A DNA stretch of 40,864 nt from the NCBI GenBank assembly GCA_026418195.1, contig JAOABU010000042.1, positions 1 to 40,864 on the forward strand, read 5' to 3'. Below are positions 2,241 to 39,296 of this stretch, in pieces; the stretch's first letter is position 1, and every line of letters starts with the position of its first letter. The position numbers and the translations under genes were made by a program. The notes under the pieces were generated by a model. It searched no databases. It was given only the letters and a program-made list of their open reading frames with translations, and was not told where the DNA came from. The DNA comes from Spirochaetota bacterium. GTDB lineage: Bacteria > Spirochaetota > Spirochaetia > DTKZ01.

Positions 2241-2624
2241 ATGAATAGGATCCGCGTGTTCGATATAGGAGCCATTCTCATCAGCATCTCAGTGCTAGGG
2301 GCCTTTTCCTATCATGTATATGCGGATCGTGGAGGGGAAGCCGTTGTCTACATCCAGAATCAGTCGAAGGTGTGGATCTATCCTCTATCGAAGGAACAGG
2401 AATTGGACATTCCCGGTCCCCTAGGGAGTACCCATATTCATATCAAAGATGGGGCCGCCTTTGTGGAAAATTCCCCTTGCCGGGACAAGATCTGCATCCA
2501 CATGGGTAGAATTGCTCGAAACGGGGAATGGGTAGCCTGCCTACCCAATCGGGTATTCCTTCAAGTGCAAGGTAAAACTGGAAACAACGGACCAGGAGAA
2601 GAGGTGGATGCCAGCACCTTCTGA
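2241..2624 (+). CDS. eetA: NusG domain II protein, EetA-like
   Basis: A 127-residue protein with one N-terminal membrane segment (about residues 7-26) and an exported NusG_II domain. The domain signature is clear: SPCRDKICIHMG (C80, C85) and ACLPNRV (C100). NusG_II proteins of this size are EetA in flavin-based extracellular electron transfer loci and also occur near Rnf/ApbE systems. The next gene is EetB-like and overlaps it by 17 bases, with fmnB and ndh2 beyond, which supports the EetA call. Translation most likely starts at 2241. An in-frame upstream ATG at 2157 would lie inside the oxidoreductase gene. No Shine-Dalgarno precedes 2241; a TATAGC ends 7 bases before it, so the message could be leaderless, but no good -35 is visible. 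Confidence 0.75.
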   Translation: MNRIRVFDIGAILISISVLGAFSYHVYADRGGEAVVYIQNQSKVWIYPLSKEQELDIPGPLGSTHIHIKDGAAFVENSPCRDKICIHMGRIARNGEWVACLPNRVFLQVQGKTGNNGPGEEVDASTF

Positions 2625-3894
2625 AATCTCTAACGCTTCCGAATCTTCCAAACAGAGGAGTCCAGAGGAGGGTCCCATCGATAGGAGATCTTTCCCTAAC
2701 CGGGAAGAAAAAATCGCCCTCTACGGAGCCTTTTGCCTGTTCCTTTCAACGATCGAGTTCCTCATCCCCAAACCCCTTCCCTTCTTTCGACTGGGCTTAG
2801 CAAATCTGCCTATCTTACTTGTCCTTCGGAAGGAATCCCCCCGATTCATCTTAGCACTCGTGGGGCTCAAGATCTTTGGGCAGGCCCTGGTGAACGGCAC
2901 ATTGTTCTCCTACATCTTTGTGTTTTCCACAGCCGGATCACTGGCTAGCGGAATCACCATGACCATCCTTTCCTTTCTGCCGGCTCGGTACCTTTCCCTG
3001 ATTGGAATCAGTGTGATGGGTGCCTTAGCTAGTAACCTCGTGCAGATCCTTCTAGCCCGGTACTTCCTTCTCGGAGAAGGTGCCTGGCTCATTGGCCCTC
3101 CCTTCCTCGCTCTCGGTACGGTGACAGGAATCCTTCTAGGTGCCATCGCCCTTTCCCTTTCAGAAACCCCGATTCTATCCCCATCCCCTCCATCCCATAG
3201 AGAACCGGATTCCGAAAGGGTTGGACAGAACGAATCCGTTCAGATAGTAGCCCTGAAAGATCCTGTAGATGATCCAATTCCCAATTCAAAGTTCCCTCAT
3301 GATTTTAATCAGTTCCTTCTCCACAGCGTTTCCCCAAGTACACTGTTCTTGGCAGGAGTATTGAGTCTTCCCCCCTTTCTCTTCACCGAATCCCTCTTAG
3401 CTAAAGGTGTGTTGACCGCTTTCTACTTTCTCTGTGTAGCACTGAGCGGAAAACGAATTAAACTCCTTCCAAACCTTATAGCATTTTTGGGTATTACTGC
3501 CACCAATCTAGTAACTCCCCTAGGTCAAGTACTCTTCTATTTCGGAACGTTCCCTGTAACCCTGGGAGCACTTCGTGTAGGAGCCTTCAAAGCTCTTTCT
3601 CTTTTAGGGATGATCGCCCTGTCCCGATTTACGCTCCGCTATTCCGTACCCATGCCTGGACGCCTGGGGGCGGTGCTTGCGCGGATGTTCTTCTACTTCG
3701 AGCGTATCACTGAGCGAAAGGTCAGACTCCGCCGTGCTCATATCTGGGAAGATGTCCAGACTCTAGTCCAGGAAGTAAGCCAAGAGAAAGTCGATCACAG
3801 CCCCCATACAGTCCGGCCATCCCATACGACCTTAGCAGGGTACCTATTCTTGTTTCTTTTCCTTACCATAAGTTGGGTTGCTCTTGTGTATTAA
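2608..3894 (+). CDS. eetB: Gx transporter / heptaprenyl diphosphate synthase component I-like membrane protein, EetB-like, with extra membrane domain
   Basis: A 428-residue polytopic membrane protein. Residues about 34-185 match the Gx_transp (HepPP synthase component I) type, with the typical RLGLANLPIL segment at 61-70 and several hydrophobic helices. This family belongs to the ECF substrate-binding (S-component) clan, and EetB of the Listeria EET locus is of this type. A polar linker (about 186-240, Pro/Ser rich) leads to a second hydrophobic region (about 243-345) and a charged amphipathic part (345-395) that loosely recalls an EcfT/CbiQ T-component, then a last TM at 407-428. The family is usually under 200 residues, so this is about double length. 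The start has AGGAGAAGAGGTGG just upstream and overlaps eetA. The gene ends two bases before the convergent fmnB stop. Confidence 0.75.
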   Translation: MPAPSEISNASESSKQRSPEEGPIDRRSFPNREEKIALYGAFCLFLSTIEFLIPKPLPFFRLGLANLPILLVLRKESPRFILALVGLKIFGQALVNGTLFSYIFVFSTAGSLASGITMTILSFLPARYLSLIGISVMGALASNLVQILLARYFLLGEGAWLIGPPFLALGTVTGILLGAIALSLSETPILSPSPPSHREPDSERVGQNESVQIVALKDPVDDPIPNSKFPHDFNQFLLHSVSPSTLFLAGVLSLPPFLFTESLLAKGVLTAFYFLCVALSGKRIKLLPNLIAFLGITATNLVTPLGQVLFYFGTFPVTLGALRVGAFKALSLLGMIALSRFTLRYSVPMPGRLGAVLARMFFYFERITERKVRLRRAHIWEDVQTLVQEVSQEKVDHSPHTVRPSHTTLAGYLFLFLFLTISWVALVY

Positions 3895-3895
3895 C

Positions 3896-4966
3896 TTACG
3901 GCATTACCTGAAATTCTGCATTCTTTAGTTCAAAGGTTTTTCGGATCCCGCTGGTCAGATAGATCTTCCGGTCTTCTGTAACAAAGATCGCTTCAACCTC
4001 TTCAAGAGATTCAGCCAGTTTCAATCCCTCTTCCCAGCCCAAGGCAAAGAGCGTTGTAGACAGACCATCCGCTTGGATCGATTTCTTTGCCATCACCGTG
4101 ACCGAATCCAATCCATTTCGAATGGGGTATCCCGTTTTCGTGTCCAGGAGGTGGTGATACTTCACACCATCAGGGCCGATGAAGAACCGCTCATAGGTGC
4201 CTGAGGTAACCACTGAAAGATCGGCACCTGGAACAATCGCCAAGTAGGAACCTCGGCTTGTTTCTGGGTTCTGGATTCCGATCCTCCAAGGCCGTCCTTC
4301 TGGGTGGGATCCCATCACAAGTATATTCCCTCCAAAATCGATGATGGCATGCTGTATCCCCTGTTCCCTTAGCACCCGTGCAGCTTCGTCCGCCGCCCAT
4401 CCTTTGGCAATGGCGCCCAGATCCAGGGCGATCCCCTTTTGTTTGATGAACACAGTCCGGTTTCCTGCGTTCAATTCCACCGATCGATAGTCTATAAAAG
4501 CAAGGGCTTCTTGGATCTCCCGGGGTGTAGGTAGTCGTGCATGGTCTGTACCGATCCCCCAGAGGGAAACCAATCTTCCGATGGCAATATCAAAAGCCCC
4601 CTTGCTGAGGGCGGAAAATCGGAGTCCTTCCGAAATCACATGGAACGTCTCTTCCGAAACTCTCACCGGTTTGATCCCTGCATTCCGATTGATCTCGCTC
4701 ACCTCACTAGTTTCGATGTTCACGCTCATCCGATTCTCTATTTCCCGCACTCGTTGGAAAACGGCATCTAGAGCTTTCGTGTCCTTTACCCCATACACGG
4801 TTACCCCACAGGTTGTACCGAGGAGAAACTCGACACGGGAGATCGGTTCTGTTGGGCGGGAGCAGGAAAGGAGAATCCCTCCAAACGTGATACTGAAGAG
4901 TGCAATCGCTAGTAATGGAAAGAATAATGGAATGAACGAGGGCGAAACCCTAGTTTTACTCTGCAT
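3896..4966 (-). CDS. fmnB: FAD:protein FMN transferase (ApbE family lipoprotein), FmnB-like
   Basis: A 356-residue flavin transferase that covalently attaches FMN from FAD to Thr/Ser of exported flavoproteins. The N-terminus is a lipoprotein signal with lipobox ILLSC (C35), so it is anchored outside the cytoplasmic membrane. ApbE motifs are present: DLGAIAKGW (182-190), HHLLDTKTGYP (271-281) and QADGLSTTLFALG (298-310) with the metal-binding Asp/Thr. It lies between eetB and ndh2 on the opposite strand. In EET loci the FmnB homologue flavinylates PplA; no PplA-like substrate is visible in this window. No Shine-Dalgarno precedes the ATG; instead a promoter -10 ends 8 bases upstream (see separate entry). 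Confidence 0.9.
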   Translation of the reverse strand: MQSKTRVSPSFIPLFFPLLAIALFSITFGGILLSCSRPTEPISRVEFLLGTTCGVTVYGVKDTKALDAVFQRVREIENRMSVNIETSEVSEINRNAGIKPVRVSEETFHVISEGLRFSALSKGAFDIAIGRLVSLWGIGTDHARLPTPREIQEALAFIDYRSVELNAGNRTVFIKQKGIALDLGAIAKGWAADEAARVLREQGIQHAIIDFGGNILVMGSHPEGRPWRIGIQNPETSRGSYLAIVPGADLSVVTSGTYERFFIGPDGVKYHHLLDTKTGYPIRNGLDSVTVMAKKSIQADGLSTTLFALGWEEGLKLAESLEEVEAIFVTEDRKIYLTSGIRKTFELKNAEFQVMP

Positions 4967-4974
4967 AGAGGGGA

Positions 4975-5003
4975 GTTGTATCAGTACTTCACATCTTTTT
5001 CAA
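4975..5003 (-). promoter_or_regulatory. fmnB promoter, apparently leaderless
   Basis: On the minus strand TTGAAA is separated by 17 bases from TACAAC, which ends 8 bases before the fmnB ATG. The interval (TCCCCTCT) has no Shine-Dalgarno. Transcription would start at or within a base or two of the ATG. Confidence 0.45.
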
Positions 5004-5011
5004 TATAGAGT

Positions 5012-5038
5012 AATATCAATATTAAAAATATTGATATT
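5012..5038. promoter_or_regulatory. Perfect 12-bp inverted repeat between fmnB and ndh2 (candidate operator)
   Basis: AATATCAATATT at 5012-5023 and its exact reverse complement AATATTGATATT at 5027-5038 flank a 3-base spacer. A further inverted pair, TGTATCAG (4977-4984) and CTGATACA (5041-5048), brackets it. It lies between two divergent starts and is too AT-rich to be a strong terminator, so it probably binds a dimeric regulator controlling fmnB and/or ndh2. Confidence 0.5.
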
Positions 5039-5069
5039 TTCTGATACATTCATCCTTGAGGAGAATACG

Positions 5070-7154
5070 ATGGCTGATAAAACTAGGATTGTGGTACTGG
5101 GGGGAGGCTACGGTGGTGTAGCCGCAATGAAGAAATTGTATAGGAAACTGAAAGGGAACCCCAACATCGAATTCACTCTGATCGATCGAAACCAGTACCA
5201 CACGCTCATGACTGAGTTACACGAAGTAGCAGGAAGTCGGGTGGATCCTGCCTCGGTACAGATAAGTTTCAAGCGTATTTTCAGTGGCACCCGGATCAAA
5301 GTCGTCACTGATACCATTCAGAATATCGATTTCGAGAATAAGCGCCTTCTCTCCAAGAATGCAAAATACGATTATGACTACTTGATCATTGCTGCAGGGG
5401 GAGACCCGGAATTCTTCGGGATCGAAGGGATTCAGGACAACTCCTTCACCCTCTGGTCGTTAGAGGATGCCATGCGGATCCGGACCCACGTGGAAGAGTG
5501 TTTCCGCAAGGCAGCCTGTGAGCCAGATCCCTTTGAACGACGGAAACTCCTCACCTTCGTGATTGCCGGTGCAGGGTTCACCGGTGTGGAGCTGGCAGGT
5601 GAATTGGCTGAACGACGAAGAGTCCTATGTCGACAGTACCATATCGAAGAACGGGAAGTTCGGATCATCATCGTGGAAGCGTTAGGGAAAATCCTTGCCA
5701 TGCTTTCCGACAAGCTCCGGGACAAGGCAGAAAAGTATCTGAAGAAGTTAGGGGTTGATGTGTACTTGAACTCCCCTATCTTCAAGGCCGAACCCCAATG
5801 CGTGATCATCGAGGGGGGCAAGAAGATCGAAGCCGCGACAATCGTTTGGACCGCTGGAATCCATGGTTCGGAACTCACTGCCAAACTAAACCTCACCAAG
5901 GGACAGGAAGCTCGGGGTGAATGTTCCTACGCTTCCTGGGAAGAGGGAATCCATGGGATGTCTGGCTGTCGGTTCGAAGAGGATGAAGTGTACCTGGTAG
6001 GCAAACGGGGGCGCATCCTGGTGAACGAACTGATGCAGTCAGTGGATCACGAAAATGTGTTTCTTGTAGGAGATATCCTCTGGTTCGTCGAGGGAGGTAA
6101 AGTACTTCCCCAGATTGTAGAAACTGCTCTTCAGACGGCCGATGTAGCTGCTGACAACATCATCGCGATGGTGGAAGGGAAACCCGAACGACGCAAGTTC
6201 AAATCCAACTACCACGGGTTCATGGTTTCCATCGGTAGCAAGCATGCGGTTTCCAATGCGGGAGGCATCGAACTATCGGGCTTCTTCGCCATGGCGTTGA
6301 AGCATTTGGTGAATCTCCACTATCTCTGGGGATTGGCAGGTCTTAACGCAGTATGGGGATATTTGACTCATGAGTTCTTCGAAATGAAGGATGGACGATC
6401 CTTTGTGGGAAGTCACCTGGCAGCCAAGATTCCTGTATACTGGGCTGTGCCTCTTCGCTTGTTCCTGGGAGTGAAGTGGTTCCTTGAAGGTGCCAAAAAG
6501 GTTGGACAAGGGTGGCTCAACCCGGGTGAAGGCGGTTTGTTCCACGTGGATCCCTCCAAGATTAAGATTCCAGGTGTCAAGTTCGGAGACGTCACGTCTG
6601 CAGCTTCTGCAGCCGCAGAGACTGCGACAAAAGCAGTTGAAAAAGCTGCTGAGGCAGTTACCGCAGCCACAGGCGCCGCAGCGCAGACGGCCAAACAAGC
6701 CGTAGAGGCAGCTTCAGACGCAGTCAGTGCAGCTACAGGGGCAGCGGCAGGCGCAGCCCAGGCCTGGGGACAAGCCCTTATTTCCACGGACTCCTGGTTG
6801 TATAAAATCTACGAATGGATCGCTCAGCACATCATTGGCATTCATCCTACCGTGGCCTTTTTCATGCAGGTCGGCTTGGTATTGACCGAAATAGGGATCG
6901 GACTCGCCCTATTCAGTGGAACTTTTACCTTCCTTGCTGCAGCCGTCTCCATTGGACTCGGTCTCATGTTTATCATCTCTGCCATGGGTAGTTCTGAACT
7001 CCTCTGGTACATCTTTGCAGCTCTCGTCATGATGGGGGGTGCGGGGCGAGGTTTCGGCCTGGATCACTGGATCATTCCCTGGATCAAGGACTGGTGGAAC
7101 AAACGGAAGATCGCCAAGAAAACTTACCTGTACCTGGGAGAACCCAGAGATTAG
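5070..7154 (+). CDS. ndh2: Type II NADH dehydrogenase with C-terminal Ala-rich linker and DoxX-like membrane domain
   Basis: A 694-residue fusion. Residues 1-430 are a two-dinucleotide-fold NDH-2: FAD loop GGGYGG (11-16), NADH loop GAGFTGVE (167-174) and the FAD-contacting FLVGD (331-335). It oxidises NADH and reduces a quinone at the inner face of the membrane. Residues 456-475 form a hydrophobic helix. Residues 509-567 are almost pure Ala with spaced Lys, Glu and Thr, containing two copies of AV(T/S)AATGAAA exactly 22 residues apart. Residues 594-665 form membrane helices resembling DoxX. Ndh2 of EET loci also carries a membrane C-terminus. The start at 5070 has GAGGAGAA at 5058-5065. Reading upstream of it would run antisense through fmnB. 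The prenyl synthase follows 24 bases later, supporting a role with a dedicated quinone. Confidence 0.85.
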   Translation: MADKTRIVVLGGGYGGVAAMKKLYRKLKGNPNIEFTLIDRNQYHTLMTELHEVAGSRVDPASVQISFKRIFSGTRIKVVTDTIQNIDFENKRLLSKNAKYDYDYLIIAAGGDPEFFGIEGIQDNSFTLWSLEDAMRIRTHVEECFRKAACEPDPFERRKLLTFVIAGAGFTGVELAGELAERRRVLCRQYHIEEREVRIIIVEALGKILAMLSDKLRDKAEKYLKKLGVDVYLNSPIFKAEPQCVIIEGGKKIEAATIVWTAGIHGSELTAKLNLTKGQEARGECSYASWEEGIHGMSGCRFEEDEVYLVGKRGRILVNELMQSVDHENVFLVGDILWFVEGGKVLPQIVETALQTADVAADNIIAMVEGKPERRKFKSNYHGFMVSIGSKHAVSNAGGIELSGFFAMALKHLVNLHYLWGLAGLNAVWGYLTHEFFEMKDGRSFVGSHLAAKIPVYWAVPLRLFLGVKWFLEGAKKVGQGWLNPGEGGLFHVDPSKIKIPGVKFGDVTSAASAAAETATKAVEKAAEAVTAATGAAAQTAKQAVEAASDAVSAATGAAAGAAQAWGQALISTDSWLYKIYEWIAQHIIGIHPTVAFFMQVGLVLTEIGIGLALFSGTFTFLAAAVSIGLGLMFIISAMGSSELLWYIFAALVMMGGAGRGFGLDHWIIPWIKDWWNKRKIAKKTYLYLGEPRD

Positions 7155-7178
7155 GAAGTTGTAAGACTCCGATAAAAG

Positions 7179-8177
7179 ATGTTGCACTTTTGGAAAGATT
7201 ATCCCCATATCCAGCGGGATTTAATAAGGGTACAGGAAATCATGCGGGCCTCCCTACAGGGGAGGGACCCGCTTTTAACCCACACCATTCAGACCCTTCT
7301 AAATCGAAACGGCAAGATGCTCAGGCCGGGCTTTGTTGTACTGGGTGCCCGATTGAAACTGATTCGAAATCACCCCTACCCAGTTCAGAAACCGTTGCCG
7401 GAAAAAATCTATCAGATCGCCGCTGCAGTGGAAATCCTGCACCTAGCCACCCTCATTCACGATGATGTGATTGATCGAGCTCAAACCCGGCGTGGTGCAC
7501 CCACCATGAACGCTGAAATTGGAGATCGAAATGCGGTACTGACTGGAGACTTCCTGTTTAGCCGCTGCTTTTCTATCGTAGCAGACTACGCAACCATGGA
7601 AAATGCTCGCGTGCTGGCCCGGGGGGTATCCCACATCTGTGAAAGCGAAATCGCTCAATCAAAGCGATTCGATCTATCTACCCTTTCGGTACGAAATTAC
7701 CTCCATCGTATCATTGGAAAAACAGCCTTCCTGTTTTCCCTAAGTCTCTTTGTAGGAGCCGAAGAATTGAAAGCTCCCCAAAGCCTCACAACTTCCCTTC
7801 GTCGCATCGGGTATTCCGTAGGAATCAGCTTCCAGATCATAGATGATATACTGGATATCATAGGGACTCCCGACACTACGGGAAAATCCACCGGAGGAGA
7901 CCTCCGAGAAGGGATCTATACTCTCCCAGTGATTCTGGCAGCTTTCGAAAACCGTAACACAGCGCTCGCCCTCTACTCCCCAGAAAACCTCTCCACACCC
8001 TCTGGCTACGAAAAGGCTCGGACCTTCATCCTGTCCCAGGGAGGAGTGGAAAAAGCCCGAGAGTATGCCAAGCGCTACACCGAAAGGGCTTTGCGAGAAG
8101 CATCCCGCATTCCTCCTTCGGAAAACCGAACGGTCCTCATCGAGGTGATCGAGAAACTCCTCCATCGATCGTATTGA
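7179..8177 (+). CDS. dmkB: Polyprenyl diphosphate synthase (DmkB-like)
   Basis: A 332-residue trans-isoprenyl diphosphate synthase that condenses isopentenyl diphosphate units to the side chain of a quinone. Both Asp-rich motifs are intact: DDVID (95-99, within LIHDDVIDRAQTRRG) and DDILD (222-226). The typical GKSTGGDLREG and TLP follow. It lies just after ndh2 on the same strand, as in EET clusters where DmkB supplies prenyl chains for demethylmenaquinone. The partner prenyltransferase DmkA is not in the window. No strong Shine-Dalgarno is near the ATG; GGAAG is about 21 bases upstream. Housekeeping octaprenyl or geranylgeranyl synthase is the alternative. The gene stops one base before the convergent lipoprotein gene. 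Confidence 0.85.
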   Translation: MLHFWKDYPHIQRDLIRVQEIMRASLQGRDPLLTHTIQTLLNRNGKMLRPGFVVLGARLKLIRNHPYPVQKPLPEKIYQIAAAVEILHLATLIHDDVIDRAQTRRGAPTMNAEIGDRNAVLTGDFLFSRCFSIVADYATMENARVLARGVSHICESEIAQSKRFDLSTLSVRNYLHRIIGKTAFLFSLSLFVGAEELKAPQSLTTSLRRIGYSVGISFQIIDDILDIIGTPDTTGKSTGGDLREGIYTLPVILAAFENRNTALALYSPENLSTPSGYEKARTFILSQGGVEKAREYAKRYTERALREASRIPPSENRTVLIEVIEKLLHRSY

Positions 8178-8906
8178 TCAATCCTTCCCTAGAGCCCAGA
8201 GCCGGCCTGAAGCCCTGTACAATTGTGAGGCCAACCATTTCTCTGATCGAAGAGTGCCTAGTTCTTTGATTCGAATCGGGGCATTGAACGCCTCTTCGTT
8301 CGGATGTCTTAAATCCATCCGTTCCTGCACGATCCCTCGACGCACATGGTAATGAATGTATTCTATCTTCCCATCCGAATAGGATGCCACTACAATCCCG
8401 GTGTGGGTGAGCTCATCGTTCCACTTCCCATCCCCATTGGCATCGTACGTATTGTCCCAGAACAACACATCTCCTGGAGAGGGAGGATGTTCAGTGAACA
8501 CAAGGCGATGGAAGAGCGCTATCTGGTACAATCTGCGCACCCCATTCCCTTCATGCCGATCGTACTCCTTTCGTAGATCCACTCCCCCGAGGTAGTAGGC
8601 GGCTAGAACGAATCCTGAACAATCGGAGGGAAAACTCGCCTTTTCGAACGTTAGCTGCGTACGGCCCAATAAGCTTTTTGCCGCTTCTACGATCCGCTTC
8701 TGTACTACAGATTTCGATGGAATAGGAAGAACTTGCCCTCCGAAGGGTACTTCACTTGAGGTTTTTCCGATTCCGGTTCGATTTGATCCACCCATTTCAC
8801 TGGAAGATAGTTTTGTGGGTGCAGGATCCGGTGACCCAACGCAGGAAAGAAATACAGGAAACGTACAAAGAAAAACCAACAGAAAAGGGATGGGCACTTT
8901 CATCAT
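8178..8906 (-). CDS. NlpC/P60-like lipoprotein
   Basis: A 242-residue secreted lipoprotein: signal peptide with lipobox around FLSC (C22), a low-complexity linker to about residue 65, then a cysteine-peptidase fold. The likely catalytic residues are C96 in FPSDCSGFV and H168 in LTHTG, with H185/H187 in YIHYH as third-position candidates. Before the His lies an EF-hand-like acidic loop, DANGDGKWNDE (155-165), which may bind calcium. Such enzymes usually cut peptidoglycan stem peptides. I start at 8906 (MMKVPIP) because a GTG at 8933 would put polar residues before the signal peptide, and because a promoter -10 lies 5 bases upstream. It is convergent with dmkB, so a link to electron transfer is unproven. 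Confidence 0.75.
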   Translation of the reverse strand: MMKVPIPFLLVFLCTFPVFLSCVGSPDPAPTKLSSSEMGGSNRTGIGKTSSEVPFGGQVLPIPSKSVVQKRIVEAAKSLLGRTQLTFEKASFPSDCSGFVLAAYYLGGVDLRKEYDRHEGNGVRRLYQIALFHRLVFTEHPPSPGDVLFWDNTYDANGDGKWNDELTHTGIVVASYSDGKIEYIHYHVRRGIVQERMDLRHPNEEAFNAPIRIKELGTLRSEKWLASQLYRASGRLWALGKD

Positions 8907-8911
8907 GGAGA

Positions 8912-8940
8912 AACATACCGCATCCCTAAACACTCTGCAA
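8912..8940 (-). promoter_or_regulatory. Promoter of P60-like lipoprotein, apparently leaderless
   Basis: On the minus strand TTGCAG, 17 bases, TATGTT, then five bases (TCTCC) and ATGATG. No Shine-Dalgarno fits. The position argues for translation from 8906 or 8903, because the upstream GTG at 8933 lies between -35 and -10. Confidence 0.45.
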
Positions 8941-28053: not shown

Positions 28054-29532
28054 CTAAGAATGGACCTTCACTGGCTCCGTTTCTTTTATTTGAAGGGTAC
28101 CTTTCCGAATCCAATCTTCGATCTTTTTCGCTGCTGCCACGGGCTTATTGATAACCGCAGGTCCCGCTACACAACCACCCTGGCAGGCCATGACCTCTAC
28201 CAGATTTCCCTCGGGTTTTGTTTTAACCATTTGACGTAAAAGTTTAATGTTTTGTCGATCCATCCCATCCACCACGAAGGGTTTAACCTCTAGTTCCGCT
28301 GCTAACTCCCTCACCTTCTTCCCTACTGCTTGGGAAACGTTTCCTACGATGGGAAAAGCGCGTGCACAGGCAGAAGGAGTATTCAGTATCAAAGCAGGCT
28401 CACAATGGGGAATATCGATCTCTTTCGCGACCAATAAGGCCCCTAATTCTTCTGTATTCAGCACATAATCCACCATCCCACTTTGCAAAGCTTCTCCTTT
28501 CTTTGCGACGCAGGGACCAATAAATACCAGAAGGCTTTCCGAATTCTCTTGTCTAGCTTTCTCTGCTGCATAGAGCATGGGACTCTTGGTTGTGGAGATA
28601 TAGGGTTTCAGTTCAGGAACATGAATCCCCACACACCTTGTGTACGCAGGACAGCAGGAGGTAGTCATAAAGGTCTCTCCACTATGGATCCGTTCCACTA
28701 ACTCCTTCGCTTCCCGAACAATCGTTTCATCCGCTCCATGAGCGACTTCGTAAACCTGATGGAACCCAAGTGCCCGTAGGGCACTTACAAGCTGCGGGTA
28801 TTCCCCGGGAAACTGCCCCACCATGGCAGGAGCAACCAATGCGATCACTGGCTTATTCGATTGTAAAGCCCGTATCACATCCAAAATCTGGGAGCGTTCC
28901 ACGATCGCACCAAAAGGACATTCGTTCATACACTTGCCACAGTAGATGCATTGAGAAAAATCGATCTGTTCCTTTCCTTGAGGACTCTTCGAAATTGCTC
29001 CTACAGGGCACGCTTCCTCACAGGGGATTGGAACTTTCACAATGGCATGGTAGGGACAAACCTTTTGGCATAATCCGCAATTCACGCAGAGGGAAGCATC
29101 GATCCTCGCTTGCCCATGGATCATCTGAATCGCTTTTTTCGGGCAGTTCCACACACAGGGACGGGCCACGCAGCCCCGGCAAGCGTTCGTCACGAAGTAG
29201 TGGCTCTGAACACAGGCACTACAGGCTTCATCGATCACTGTCAGAACAGGATCCTCCACCTGCACACGATCTAAGGCTTCTTCCGCATAGGAAGAGAGGG
29301 GTCGAAGCTCATCTGATTCCTTTTCCAGAGCAAAGCCTAGCATGGCCATGAGCCTGTATTTGATCACCACTCTGTCATGATGGATACAGCATCGGATCGA
29401 TGGTTTTTCTTTGGGAATCATCTCGAAAGGAATGCGATCGATCTCCTTTGTCAGGGTACCCCTAAACGCCATAGAAGCCACTTTTACCAGCAGTTCCCGT
29501 CGAATATGGGTAGCAGTATTGTTATATAACAT
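28054..29532 (-). CDS. [FeFe]-hydrogenase, catalytic type (group B-like) with extra ferredoxin clusters
   Basis: A 492-residue monomeric [FeFe]-hydrogenase. The N-terminal half has cysteine-rich [4Fe-4S] motifs: CRGCVARPC (118-126), CVNCGLCQKVCP (149-160), CEEACP and CIYCGKCMNECP (195-206). The H-domain keeps all ligands and the proton-shuttle Cys: L1 TSCCP (291-295), L2 GPCVAKK (C341), L3 EVMACQGGC (C450, C454). It makes or uses H2 in the cytoplasm, exchanging electrons with ferredoxin. It is last in an operon with two thioredoxin-fold [2Fe-2S] proteins, a sensory hydrogenase and a phosphatase. A GGAGAG ribosome site lies close before the start. The maturases HydEFG are not in the window. 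Confidence 0.92.
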   Translation of the reverse strand: MLYNNTATHIRRELLVKVASMAFRGTLTKEIDRIPFEMIPKEKPSIRCCIHHDRVVIKYRLMAMLGFALEKESDELRPLSSYAEEALDRVQVEDPVLTVIDEACSACVQSHYFVTNACRGCVARPCVWNCPKKAIQMIHGQARIDASLCVNCGLCQKVCPYHAIVKVPIPCEEACPVGAISKSPQGKEQIDFSQCIYCGKCMNECPFGAIVERSQILDVIRALQSNKPVIALVAPAMVGQFPGEYPQLVSALRALGFHQVYEVAHGADETIVREAKELVERIHSGETFMTTSCCPAYTRCVGIHVPELKPYISTTKSPMLYAAEKARQENSESLLVFIGPCVAKKGEALQSGMVDYVLNTEELGALLVAKEIDIPHCEPALILNTPSACARAFPIVGNVSQAVGKKVRELAAELEVKPFVVDGMDRQNIKLLRQMVKTKPEGNLVEVMACQGGCVAGPAVINKPVAAAKKIEDWIRKGTLQIKETEPVKVHS

Positions 29533-29543
29533 GATTCTCTCCT

Positions 29544-29816
29544 TTATAGAGAAGCCTGCCGCCGAATCTCTTCAACCACTTTCGGAATCGTAGCCGTACT
29601 GATCAGGGTATCGTTTACCTTCACAAAGGGGGCTTTCCCGTATGAGCCTCCCTTACAAAGATTCATACAGGGTGACCCTTCCAGATTGATCCGAGAAGCG
29701 AGAGATTCTTCCAACACTTTCTCGATCCCGAACAATTCGGAAGCTCCCATCAGGTAGCAGGTCGTTCCAGAACAGATGACCACATGAATGTTCCTTGCGT
29801 TTTTTAATAATTCCAT
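29544..29816 (-). CDS. Thioredoxin-like [2Fe-2S] ferredoxin
   Basis: A 90-residue NuoE/HydC C-terminal-like domain. Four ligating cysteines follow the C-x4-C and C-x3-C pattern (CSGTTC at 15-20, then CMNLC at about 50-54). It would shuttle one electron to the hydrogenase encoded 11 bases downstream. Strong AGAGGAG ribosome site. Standing alone, this small domain is typical of [FeFe]-hydrogenase operons. Confidence 0.85.
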   Translation of the reverse strand: MELLKNARNIHVVICSGTTCYLMGASELFGIEKVLEESLASRINLEGSPCMNLCKGGSYGKAPFVKVNDTLISTATIPKVVEEIRRQASL

Positions 29817-29833
29817 ACGTATACTCCTCTCGT

Positions 29834-31021
29834 TCAGATGAATTGGATATGCACTTCTTTTAAGTACCGCTCTTCCAACAACTGAGCGATCCGTTTAACA
29901 ATGTTCCGACGGATTTCCAATTCCATGGGCATCGAAGGATCCTGGTGTGCTTCATTGATCCGAGTTCCCACCACAAAATCCACGATGTCGCTGTTCAATA
30001 GCTGTTCCATCAGAAGGTAGGCAGCATTCTTGGTGGAAGGTCGATGTGTCCTTCCCTGCAGATTCCCATCCAGAAGCTCTGCGGTTTTCCCCAATGTGAG
30101 GATTCCTTCGGTCACTAGATCTGCCCCTTCCATTTCGGAAGCGGGAGGCACCTCAGGATCTATGTTCTGTAAACAGACACGAACCTGTTTTCCCAGTTCC
30201 CTAGCTAGGATGGTAGCGGTAGTACCACCACAAATGATTCTCTTCCCTCTGTATACAGAAAAAATGGAAGCTAATTCCTTGTCCCGTTCGATAGCAACCG
30301 GCGGACCTGTAAGAACAAGGGCGCGCCTAGGATTGCGGAAGTAGAGAACACCGCAGGTGATATCATCCTTTGCCTCTAGGGCATCGTTCCACAGGCTTTT
30401 ACGAACTACCGTATGGGCTAATTCTCGAGCAGACAACGTGGGGTCCCTCTGCACTACCTCCTGTAAAAATTTCTTCACCCCTTCAGTTCCCCAGCCTAAG
30501 GGCATAGCCGGAGTTCCAATTCCCGATTGCACCACCCCATCGGAGAACACGATGATTCGGTCTCCAGGTTTTGCAACAAAAGAAGATAGAGAGATTGTTG
30601 TCTTTCTTCCATATCGGGAAGGGAGACGAGCGACTGTTTTCTGAACTTCAACAATTTCCCCATCTCGGATAAGGACGTAGGGAGGATTATCGTATTCGAG
30701 AATGCGCACCTCCTGGTTTCCCCTTACATCCACAATGGTGAAGGTAGCGTATCGAATCCGACGTTCCGAACAGACGGGTAGGGTTTGATGGATAATCTGC
30801 GCAGCTCGTTCGATGGGTACATTCCCTGCCATACAGGTAATAGCCATCGTGGCAGTCAATGTGGAAAGAACCCCTGCCTTCACTCCACTGCCTAAACCGT
30901 CACTCAACACAGAAATCACTCGATTCTCCGGAAGGATTTTCTTTGAGAGAAAAATGTCTCCTTCCATTCGGTAGCTTCCTTTGGGACACTGGTGATGATC
31001 TACTTCGATGAACGTTTCCAT
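29834..31021 (-). CDS. SpoIIE/PP2C-type serine phosphatase of the hydrogenase cluster
   Basis: A 395-residue cytoplasmic protein. The first ~240 residues are a PP2C/SpoIIE fold with metal Asp motifs SDGLGSG (40-46), VFSDGVVQSG and KDDITCGVL. Residues about 245-395 are a second domain found in hydrogenase-linked phosphatases (ICGGTTATILAREL, with DLVTEGILTLGK). The start ATG shares one base with the stop of the sensory hydrogenase gene (TAATG), so the two are translated together, which suggests that the phosphatase reads the sensor's output. Its targets may be an anti-sigma/anti-anti-sigma pair or the hydrogenase itself. Confidence 0.85.
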   Translation of the reverse strand: METFIEVDHHQCPKGSYRMEGDIFLSKKILPENRVISVLSDGLGSGVKAGVLSTLTATMAITCMAGNVPIERAAQIIHQTLPVCSERRIRYATFTIVDVRGNQEVRILEYDNPPYVLIRDGEIVEVQKTVARLPSRYGRKTTISLSSFVAKPGDRIIVFSDGVVQSGIGTPAMPLGWGTEGVKKFLQEVVQRDPTLSARELAHTVVRKSLWNDALEAKDDITCGVLYFRNPRRALVLTGPPVAIERDKELASIFSVYRGKRIICGGTTATILARELGKQVRVCLQNIDPEVPPASEMEGADLVTEGILTLGKTAELLDGNLQGRTHRPSTKNAAYLLMEQLLNSDIVDFVVGTRINEAHQDPSMPMELEIRRNIVKRIAQLLEERYLKEVHIQFI

Positions 31022-32760
31022 TACCGGCTCTCCTGCCCAAAGGATTGAATGATGGCGTTCAGCATTACCTCGCTTTCTGCTGCATTTTCCCCCAATAGAT
31101 ACGCAATTTTTTGAACGGTAGAAAGCTGTTTTTGAATGATCTTCTCGGCTTGCTCCACAATACGGTCCTTCTGGATGAAGGGAATGGTAATGTCCTGGAA
31201 AATTCCTCCTACGTATCTACCTCGTTCTACAGTAAAGATCGATCCCTTCAGGATCTTTTCCCTATACCGGATATCCTTTTCCAGGATATCTACTCCAGTT
31301 TCCAGTACTGTTACGAACAGATCTGCAAAGGGTACCAGCTTTTTCAAGGATGCTTTTTCCAACCCAGGCTTTGTCTCATACAGCTCTTCTACTTCCCTAC
31401 CCAACAAACGAGCAAAGTTTCGATTACATTCCACGATGAAAAGCCCATCATCCACCACAACCACACCCGTTGGCATAGTTTTCAATAAAGCATTAGCTTT
31501 TTTTTGGGCCAATTTTCTCATGTAGGATAGACACATAGTAGGTTCCGCTTTTTTCATCACGAAGGCTTCGGCGAATTGCCGGCAGGTATCGTATCCACAC
31601 CCTCCACAGTTCAATTCATCTTCTACAGAATACTTTCCTACCTTCGACAGTGCCTCTCGGATCTCCCTGTCACTAATTTTACCTTTGGATAAAGGAGGGA
31701 TCCTCCAACGGTACAATAAGTTCAAACCCGAAGGATCCTCTTCCCTAGAGGAAAATTGTTTGTAGTACTGTTGAATCTTGTTCCATTTCATGAGGGTTCC
31801 ATTCTTTTTTGTACAACCAGGGCCATTCACACACCCTCCGGTACATGCAAGGATTTCCACGAAAAGAGGGGCCTTTAATTGTGAAACCTCTATCTTTTCA
31901 AGGGCTTTTGGAATTTCATGGATTCCTGAAATACTGGTGCACAAGTCCTCGGGAAACTTCTTTCTATTGAGAATTGTTCGAACCATCCCCCCATCCACAG
32001 GGTACAGGGATCCATCCTTACTGTTCCGCGGTACAAAGGGCGGGGAGAAGGAATGGGAAGATTTCAATCCAGGTCCTGATGGTTCCAACGGGAATCCTTC
32101 ATCCGCAAACCAGTTCCTCACTTCGCGGAAAGTTAGGGCAGCATCGATCAATTCAGGGCGAGCATCAGACTCTCGTTTCTTAGCAATACAGGGCCCGATG
32201 AACACCACACCAATGTCCTCTCCATATAACCGCTTCAACAGTTGTGCATGGGCCATCAACGGAGATGACAGTTCCATGAGGTACGTAGATACGGCGGGTT
32301 GATACTTTTTTAGAAACTCAACTACGGTGGGACAAGCGGAAGAAAGGTAGAGCTTCTTCCCTTCATGCATCGCTTCGGAAAGGTCATTTGCCAGGATAGT
32401 GGAAACAGCTTCTGCTCCGAGTGCCGTCTCAGATACACCTGCAAATCCCAGTGTTTCCAGTCCCTTGAACAAACCCGGAAGTTCTGTCTCAGAAAACTCA
32501 CTGACAAAGGACGGAGCTAGGGATACATACACGGTACGTTTTGTAGATAAAACATGCTTAACCTTTCCTACATCATCCCGAACCTTTTTGGCGCCCACCG
32601 GACAAACAGACACGCAGTGTCCACAGAGGATACAGAGTTCTGGAACCACTTCCGCATGGCTATCTACGACTCGGATGGCCTTCACCGTGCATTCCCGTAG
32701 GCATTTGTAACAATCTTGACATTCGGTTCGCTCTGTATAGATCGGATTCAATCTATCCAT
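31021..32760 (-). CDS. Sensory [FeFe]-hydrogenase (HydS-like) with C-terminal PAS domain
   Basis: A 579-residue hydrogenase-like protein. N-terminal ferredoxin motifs: CQDCYKCLREC (14-24) and CILCGHCVSVCP (43-54). The H-domain keeps the four cluster ligands (C143, C191, C306, C310), but L1 reads SSACP (140-144): Ala replaces the proton-relay Cys. A Cys-rich [4Fe-4S] 'Fes' domain (C385, C388, C393, C410) and a PAS domain (about 425-530) follow, ending in a helix. This architecture is known for group C sensor hydrogenases such as Thermotoga HydS, which turn over slowly and report H2. It overlaps the ferredoxin upstream (8 bases) and the phosphatase downstream (1 base). Confidence 0.9.
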   Translation of the reverse strand: MDRLNPIYTERTECQDCYKCLRECTVKAIRVVDSHAEVVPELCILCGHCVSVCPVGAKKVRDDVGKVKHVLSTKRTVYVSLAPSFVSEFSETELPGLFKGLETLGFAGVSETALGAEAVSTILANDLSEAMHEGKKLYLSSACPTVVEFLKKYQPAVSTYLMELSSPLMAHAQLLKRLYGEDIGVVFIGPCIAKKRESDARPELIDAALTFREVRNWFADEGFPLEPSGPGLKSSHSFSPPFVPRNSKDGSLYPVDGGMVRTILNRKKFPEDLCTSISGIHEIPKALEKIEVSQLKAPLFVEILACTGGCVNGPGCTKKNGTLMKWNKIQQYYKQFSSREEDPSGLNLLYRWRIPPLSKGKISDREIREALSKVGKYSVEDELNCGGCGYDTCRQFAEAFVMKKAEPTMCLSYMRKLAQKKANALLKTMPTGVVVVDDGLFIVECNRNFARLLGREVEELYETKPGLEKASLKKLVPFADLFVTVLETGVDILEKDIRYREKILKGSIFTVERGRYVGGIFQDITIPFIQKDRIVEQAEKIIQKQLSTVQKIAYLLGENAAESEVMLNAIIQSFGQESR

Positions 32761-38357: not shown

Positions 38358-39296
38358 CTATCGGATTAGCACCTGGGAATTCATACGGAGAAACTTTTCC
38401 CGTGCCTTCGGGTATGAATCCCCTCGAGTGTATGCATAAATACTATTCTCCCGAAGAGTCCCTAACTCATCATAGTATCGCACAATGGGATGTTCGATCA
38501 CTCCTCGGATGGTTTCTTTTGGTATCCCTTGTTGTAACAGGTACGTAGCAAAGGAAAGTTCTTCACAGGGAATATGGGTTCCCGCAGAAGAGTATAGGTA
38601 ATCCCTACCATCTAGGATCTGTTCGAACGGTCCTTTGGAATAGTGAAACACTCGGTCCACTGGTACTTCCTGGGGAAGAATCTTTGCATCCCTCAGGGCT
38701 TGTTCCATCTGTTTGAAGATCAGGGCAAAGCTTTCATACCCGATGGAGGTTCGGAACAGCATGACAGCGATGTCCGTTCCCTGCGCATTCTTCTGTACCA
38801 GGGCAGGAATGTCATAGTTCACGATGAATAGGTCTCCATACCTCTTTACCGATTGTCCACTAGTGATAAGCACATCCTCTATGGGAACCCAGAGTGCAAA
38901 TAACTGTTCCGGTGTCCACCCTAGGATCCGCAATGCTTCAAACGCCCCAACAATTCGGCAGGAATCGAAAGATCGGCCGAATCGTTCCTCGAAATCCCGC
39001 TTCATGAACTCAGTGAAGAGCGTTTTCCCTAACACAGCAAACCGCATCCGAACGAGGTAATGCTTCTCTATGATGTGATTCTTCAAGATGAACTCACCTG
39101 GAATATTGGCTAGGTATACGAAAAAAATGCGCTGTTTGTACTCGGGGTTTTTCTGAATGATCTTCAGAAGCAAACTCTCCACCAGGTATCCGTTGGATTC
39201 CGGCCGCAGATACACAAAAATATCTTCTGTGGAAGGATCGACAGATGGGCCTGGATATGGGATCAGCACAGAAGGTAAACCCTTGTCATTCCCCAT
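38358..39296 (-). CDS. Conserved spirochaete protein of unknown function next to pheT
   Basis: A 312-residue soluble protein, no signal peptide or membrane helix. I recognise no catalytic motif. It has alternating alpha/beta segments (DIFVYLRPESNGYLVESLL; IFFVYLANIPGEFIL; DLFIVNYDIPALV; DIAVMLFRT) that resemble neither synthetase nor nuclease families. From memory, an unknown gene occupies this position after pheT in Treponema pallidum, so it may be a lineage-specific conserved protein. It lies 56 bases after pheT, but a promoter of its own sits in the gap, with no Shine-Dalgarno. Confidence 0.7.
   Translation of the reverse strand: MGNDKGLPSVLIPYPGPSVDPSTEDIFVYLRPESNGYLVESLLLKIIQKNPEYKQRIFFVYLANIPGEFILKNHIIEKHYLVRMRFAVLGKTLFTEFMKRDFEERFGRSFDSCRIVGAFEALRILGWTPEQLFALWVPIEDVLITSGQSVKRYGDLFIVNYDIPALVQKNAQGTDIAVMLFRTSIGYESFALIFKQMEQALRDAKILPQEVPVDRVFHYSKGPFEQILDGRDYLYSSAGTHIPCEELSFATYLLQQGIPKETIRGVIEHPIVRYYDELGTLRENSIYAYTRGDSYPKAREKFLRMNSQVLIR

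Follow-up and report, generated by a model that had tools for sequence, protein, structure and literature searches.

A probable diverged, PplA-less FLEET-type locus with linked flavin and quinone arms in a diderm spirochaete

We describe five clustered genes of a free-living, diderm spirochaete that probably constitute a diverged locus of the flavin-based extracellular electron transfer (FLEET) type lacking PplA, in which a flavin arm and a quinone arm are linked. The window (the whole 40,864-nucleotide stretch of DNA analysed) corresponds to contig C22 of a draft genome of 3.13 Mb (G000, 98.6% complete). Within 6 kb of it lie eetA, eetB, apbE, ndh2 and dmkB, arranged on mixed strands as three transcription units: eetA-eetB (+), apbE (−) and ndh2-dmkB (+). 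In a profile search, all five open reading frames (ORFs) at 2241–8177 scored above their Pfam cut-offs, bearing out an earlier note, made from the sequence alone, that five gene types of extracellular electron transfer (EET) are packed together here. The same note had called the host a probable spirochaete, and rightly so: uncultured Spirochaeta/Spirochaetales MAGs are its closest named records. Sugar-metabolism-type genes lie upstream of the locus. Downstream of dmkB is a gene for a CHAP/NlpC-P60-like lipoprotein (8178–8933, −; sub-threshold matches to PF05257/PF00877), a frequent neighbour whose homologues are found near ndh2 in loci L012, L013, L049, L050 and L055. Elsewhere in the window (28054–32760), iron–sulphur proteins that resemble [FeFe]-hydrogenase-like proteins flank a SpoIIE-like phosphatase ORF, as judged by eye from the translations.

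The quinone arm would begin with ndh2 (5070–7154, +), which encodes a type II NADH dehydrogenase of 694 aa (NDH-2; Pyr_redox_2, 123 bits) predicted to oxidize NADH and reduce a (demethyl)menaquinone-type quinone. Residues 1–396 are those of a standard NDH-2 (7e-102 and TMt 0.94 against the NDH-2 structure 4NWZ) and are followed by a linker rich in Ala and, at the C-terminus, a membrane domain, with hydrophobic segments near residues 588–639. This membrane tail had no convincing Pfam match, and the protein is homologous over nearly its full length, tail included, to NDH-2 of Fonticella, Clostridium, Anaeromonas and Paenibacillus. In an unrooted tree built by a quick method, the NDH-2 proteins of Spirochaetota and Bacillota formed two groups (separating branch SH-aLRT 98), a clean split that argues against recent transfer into the window’s lineage.

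Adjoining ndh2, dmkB (7179–8177, +; PF00348, 193 bits) encodes a trans-polyprenyl diphosphate synthase, for which the best NCBIfam model, heptaprenyl diphosphate synthase component II, scored under its cut-off. DmkB would supply the quinone side chain, to be attached by a UbiA protein whose gene lies on a different contig. The single ubiA gene of the genome, on contig C28, scores best, below their cut-offs, with DHNA polyprenyltransferase models (1,4-DHNA), and is thus a DmkA-like candidate outside the eet locus. At L015 9519–13466 this candidate is immediately followed by a full ECF transporter operon comprising a PF09819 S-component, a double ATPase and a CbiQ-type T-component; its ATPases are perhaps shared with EetB.

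The quinone head group is probably scavenged, because neither known head-group pathway was found: profile searches of G000 returned neither menB nor MqnA over cut-off, a result that may leave room for a head-group route of another kind. Across 19 genomes of the spirochaete phylum searched in this way, MqnA-type matches occurred in four and menB over cut-off in none, the sub-threshold menB matches being likely ordinary enoyl-CoA hydratases. Almost all of these 19 genomes nevertheless retain NDH-2 and DmkB, and widespread quinone scavenging is possible among them. The quinol might be re-oxidized by an external shuttle, mineral or electrode. A fumarate or urocanate reductase was considered as quinol sink and rejected, because the sole FAD_binding_2 protein of the genome looks like NadB (L-aspartate oxidase) and is encoded between nadC-like and ispE-like genes.

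The flavin arm starts with eetA (2241–2624, +; PF07009, 81 bits), the sole copy in the genome by profile search. Its product is a NusG domain II protein with a single N-terminal membrane anchor (one hydrophobic segment) and a conserved Cys pair (CRDKIC) that is also present in relatives. The end of eetA overlaps by 17 nt the start of eetB (2608–3894, +), which encodes an ECF-S-like putative FAD-export subunit (PF07456, Gx_transp; 111 bits over residues 41–181). When a two-domain EetB model of moderate confidence was used as Foldseek query, the N-terminal domain resembled the RibU S-components 3p5n and 5kc0 (probability 1.00, TMt 0.68, E about 0.1–0.5). Listeria EetB binds FAD and, together with FmnA (ECF-T) and ECF ATPases, is needed for the FAD export that serves FmnB (PMC9973259); by analogy, EetB here would be the S-subunit of an FAD exporter.

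Fused to it is a C-terminal membrane domain (3283–3894, +; about residues 226–428), a candidate ECF-T/FmnA-like part that may act as the T-subunit. EetB–ECF-T fusions are known in other bacteria (PMC9973259), and the domain is encoded by a separate ORF right after eetB in L062, L067, L069, L080, L082, L177, L197 and L209. It has no match in Pfam, matches EcfT weakly by profile (hhalign, probability 60) and is poorly modelled (pLDDT about 60–70), with no ECF-T among the Foldseek matches listed. The earlier note listed PplA, DmkA and the FMN exporter as missing from the window. PplA was indeed not found, in the window or in the rest of the genome, but a DmkA-like UbiA is encoded elsewhere in the genome, and at least part of the exporter is there: EetB would be its S-subunit, and the same ORF bears the extra membrane domain.

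The third flavin gene, apbE (3896–4966, −; PF02424, 320 bits), is single-copy in the genome by profile search and encodes an FAD:protein FMN transferase (ApbE/FmnB) with a lipobox-like N-terminus (LLSC). Its best PDB match was 7ESA (1.7e-88), which is FmnB of Listeria (PMC8906456), followed by the ApbE structure 4IFU (9e-61). This lipoprotein would place FMN onto proteins outside the cytoplasm, here the Rnf/Nqr-type G/C and D/B subunits of three complexes. A PF04205 search of the genome recovered three FMN_bind proteins, all encoded in Rnf/Nqr operons: a canonical rnf operon on contig C69 (L016 9252–14131), an nqrBCDEF set on contig C65 (L017 8475–12329; contig positions 38474–42328) and a divergent rnf-like set, also on C65 (L018 2893–7937). 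Against an action of ApbE on these subunits, the motif is altered in two of the three of G/C type, reading ITASTITS and, in the G subunit of the divergent C65 set, ISGATNTF. NqrF of the nqrB-C-D-E-F operon scored above the nqrF equivalog cut-off, and upstream, in the place of NqrA, is a mannitol-dehydrogenase-like ORF. NqrA was not found in the genome, and a complete Na+-NQR was rejected for that reason. To find three Rnf/Nqr-type complexes in a single genome seems unusual.

As apbE is single-copy, any flavinylation of the Rnf/Nqr subunits would be done by the ApbE of the window, an action that we infer from their motifs. The flavin arm most likely matures the Rnf/Nqr complexes, because their G/C and D/B subunits are the sole recognizable acceptors. 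The earlier note had looked to an exported FMN acceptor somewhere in the genome; acceptors do exist, but all three FMN_bind proteins are Rnf/Nqr subunits and a PplA-like protein was not found.

That the only acceptors found belong to Rnf/Nqr also speaks for a different, rather unlikely account, by which two unrelated modules happen to be neighbours: eetA-eetB-apbE for flavin export and Rnf/Nqr maturation, and ndh2-dmkB as a plain NADH:quinone oxidoreductase unit serving redox balance or protection from oxygen. In Clostridia, eetB is colocalized with Rnf genes in 572 genomes (PMC9973259), and ApbE of those eetA-eetB-apbE clusters serving Rnf has the same kind of acceptors available to it as here. 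In addition, apbE of the window lies on the opposite strand, and most spirochaete ndh2-dmkB pairs are without eetA, eetB or apbE nearby (each missing in 31–36 of 44). Unlike the clostridial clusters, however, the spirochaete genes sit with ndh2-dmkB and not with rnf; the rnf/nqr genes are on contigs C65 and C69 and the eetA-eetB-apbE module on C22. The sole eetA and sole apbE of the genome thus lie away from the rnf loci, and the eet and apbE genes of relatives neighbour those for NDH-2 and PplA-like proteins. An affiliation with Rnf-associated families only, which the earlier note had named as the finding that would count against it, was therefore rejected.

Gene neighbourhoods across the phylum weigh further against two unrelated modules. 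Among 393 genomes of the phylum, a scan revealed long NDH-2 in many Spirochaetia. We compared 44 spirochaete neighbourhoods chosen by NDH-2, so every linkage rate given here for another gene holds only where NDH-2 is present. DmkB adjoined NDH-2 in all 44, and also near NDH-2 were ApbE (13), EetA (9), EetB (8), UbiA (6) and a PplA-like protein (9). Clustering by chance is not credible given that DmkB is always adjacent and that EetA, EetB or ApbE are also present in 8–13 of the 44. Linkage of ndh2 with eetA, eetB or apbE recurs across several spirochaete families (L050, L055, L062, L067, L069, L080 and L082) and in Bacillota, where ndh2-eetA-eetB-dmkB is the gene order of several loci, apbE, ubiA or pplA being nearby, and one (L165) has all seven genes, ndh2, eetA, eetB, dmkB, apbE, ubiA and pplA. 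No rnf gene was seen in the 44 spirochaete neighbourhoods, although these were selected by NDH-2, and the same clusters are joined by PplA-like proteins. The FLEET-type locus is thus widespread in Spirochaetia; a limited search of the open literature found no report of FLEET in Spirochaetes.

The Listeria monocytogenes FLEET locus, lmo2634–lmo2641, reads fmnA-dmkA-fmnB-pplA-ndh2-eetAB-dmkB, and most descriptions of FLEET come from Gram-positive bacteria with a single membrane. Both the Listeria locus and that of the window have ndh2 with a membrane tail, dmkB, eetA, eetB and an FmnB-like apbE, the likeness of ndh2 being drawn from its homologues in FLEET loci of Firmicutes other than Listeria. 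They differ in that the spirochaete DmkA-like UbiA is encoded on another contig whereas Listeria dmkA is in the locus, that spirochaete eetB is fused to an extra membrane domain and apbE is on the opposite strand, and that the spirochaete host is diderm, with PplA, menB and MqnA not found in its genome. The description of this DNA as a Listeria-type EET locus therefore holds for descent, the genes being FLEET-type by homology, but not for PplA or a quinone head-group pathway, neither of which was found. We refrain from calling the locus a complete EET system of the Listeria type, because PplA, a usual component, was looked for and not found.

That search used PF04205 and two alignment models on G000; the two alignment models also failed to find a PplA-like protein in three genus mates, among them G002 (97% complete). 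A PplA-like gene could have been missed in the draft. The nine genomes of our order-level search belong to a single family, and within this family the sister genera G006, G007 and G008 do have a PplA-like protein, that of G008 being encoded between eetB and apbE and bearing the motif DMITGATDT. The PplA-like proteins of G006 and G007 (L118 3670–4143 and L132) are single-domain, and these drafts have no long NDH-2. Across the phylum, alignment-model searches found PplA-like proteins at E < 1e-20 in 35 of 51 NDH-2-positive genomes, and the lipoprotein also surfaced in blind clustering of NDH-2 neighbours. Each of these lipoproteins has between one and three FMN_bind-like domains, which end in the motifs DxxSGVSIHV, DxITGATDT or DxVTGAT. 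Their Pfam FMN_bind scores are partial or full, and FMN-binding-domain structures are among their matches; HutF_N, Caleosin and similar weak Pfam matches were taken as chance. In L113 (G146, contig C205), a gene for a two-domain PplA-like protein adjoins separate eetB and T-domain-like genes, an arrangement that links the flavin exporter to PplA-like proteins; ndh2 is on another contig of that genome. The loci of Sphaerochaeta halotolerans 4-11 (L166) and of the MAGs L177, L197 and L153 share the NDH-2 family and DmkB with the window, and L177 and L197 share EetA, EetB and ApbE as well. All four carry an FMN-binding lipoprotein of one to three domains, which was not found in the window’s genus. 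The locus of Alkalispirochaeta alkalica DSM 8900 (L157), by contrast, contains no PplA.

The apparent absence of PplA from this genus, set against its presence in the three sister genera, together with the failure to find quinone head-group genes, would fit a locus in decay, with ndh2-dmkB as a relic. We consider this very improbable: every ORF is intact, and NDH-2 is 97% identical to that of a genus mate and 80% identical to that of G008. Also kept is a perfect 12-bp inverted repeat, AATATCAATATT-AAA-AATATTGATATT (5012–5038), in the divergent promoter region between apbE and ndh2. It is the single such site in the window and did not occur in shuffled sequences, and is thus not expected by chance; single-stranded, this part of the DNA gives a better fold than shuffled versions of itself (z −2.8). 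The repeat is kept in two genus mates, being identical in L012/L151 and changed at one position in L013/L152, and is absent from L014 and in G008. It is operator-like, and we regard it as a putative operator.

Alternatively, the locus may work as an EET locus without PplA, with NDH-2 reducing quinone and electrons leaving to flavins, metals or electrodes through quinone shuttles, free flavins or an unrecognized periplasmic reductase. We hold this only tentatively, as a possible extension of the homology to FLEET loci. In Lactococcus, every genome has the FLEET locus but not its pplA gene, yet L. lactis produces current; likewise, a pplA deletion mutant of L. plantarum gives wild-type current, which makes PplA unnecessary for anode reduction in that species (PMC8837199). 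L. plantarum is, moreover, a quinone auxotroph that carries out EET with external DHNA (PMC10746273). The window’s locus, with FLEET genes and no PplA as in Lactococcus, may work like that form, with the difference that L. lactis makes its own quinones (PMC8837199) whereas no known route was found in the spirochaete genome. Against a working EET locus are also the failure to find a PplA-like protein anywhere in the genus, the lack of a detected DHNA pathway, and the finding that iron reduction by lactic acid bacteria went with ndh2 and pplA together (PMC8837199). Electron export to flavins or metals by the host, as the earlier note suggested, is on these grounds possible.

A more specific scheme would have a quinone-auxotrophic diderm running a PplA-less FLEET chain in which NDH-2 reduces a scavenged naphthoquinone and flavinylated periplasmic Nqr/Rnf subunits, including those of nqrBCDEF without NqrA, replace PplA as the flavin exit for electrons bound for external acceptors; we think it improbable. 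Our preferred reading stays with the diverged, PplA-less FLEET-type locus and its two linked arms, in which FAD exported by EetB would serve ApbE and NADH electrons would enter a probably scavenged quinone.

The same NDH-2, DmkB, EetA/EetB and ApbE families occur across free-living Spirochaetia, often with multi-domain PplA-like lipoproteins, which raises the question of whether two-membrane spirochaetes respire external acceptors by a FLEET-type route. That head-group genes are apparently lacking in most NDH-2-positive genomes tested suggests a dependence on the quinones of neighbours. Some spirochaetes with FLEET-type genes are already in culture, so the question is open to bench work.
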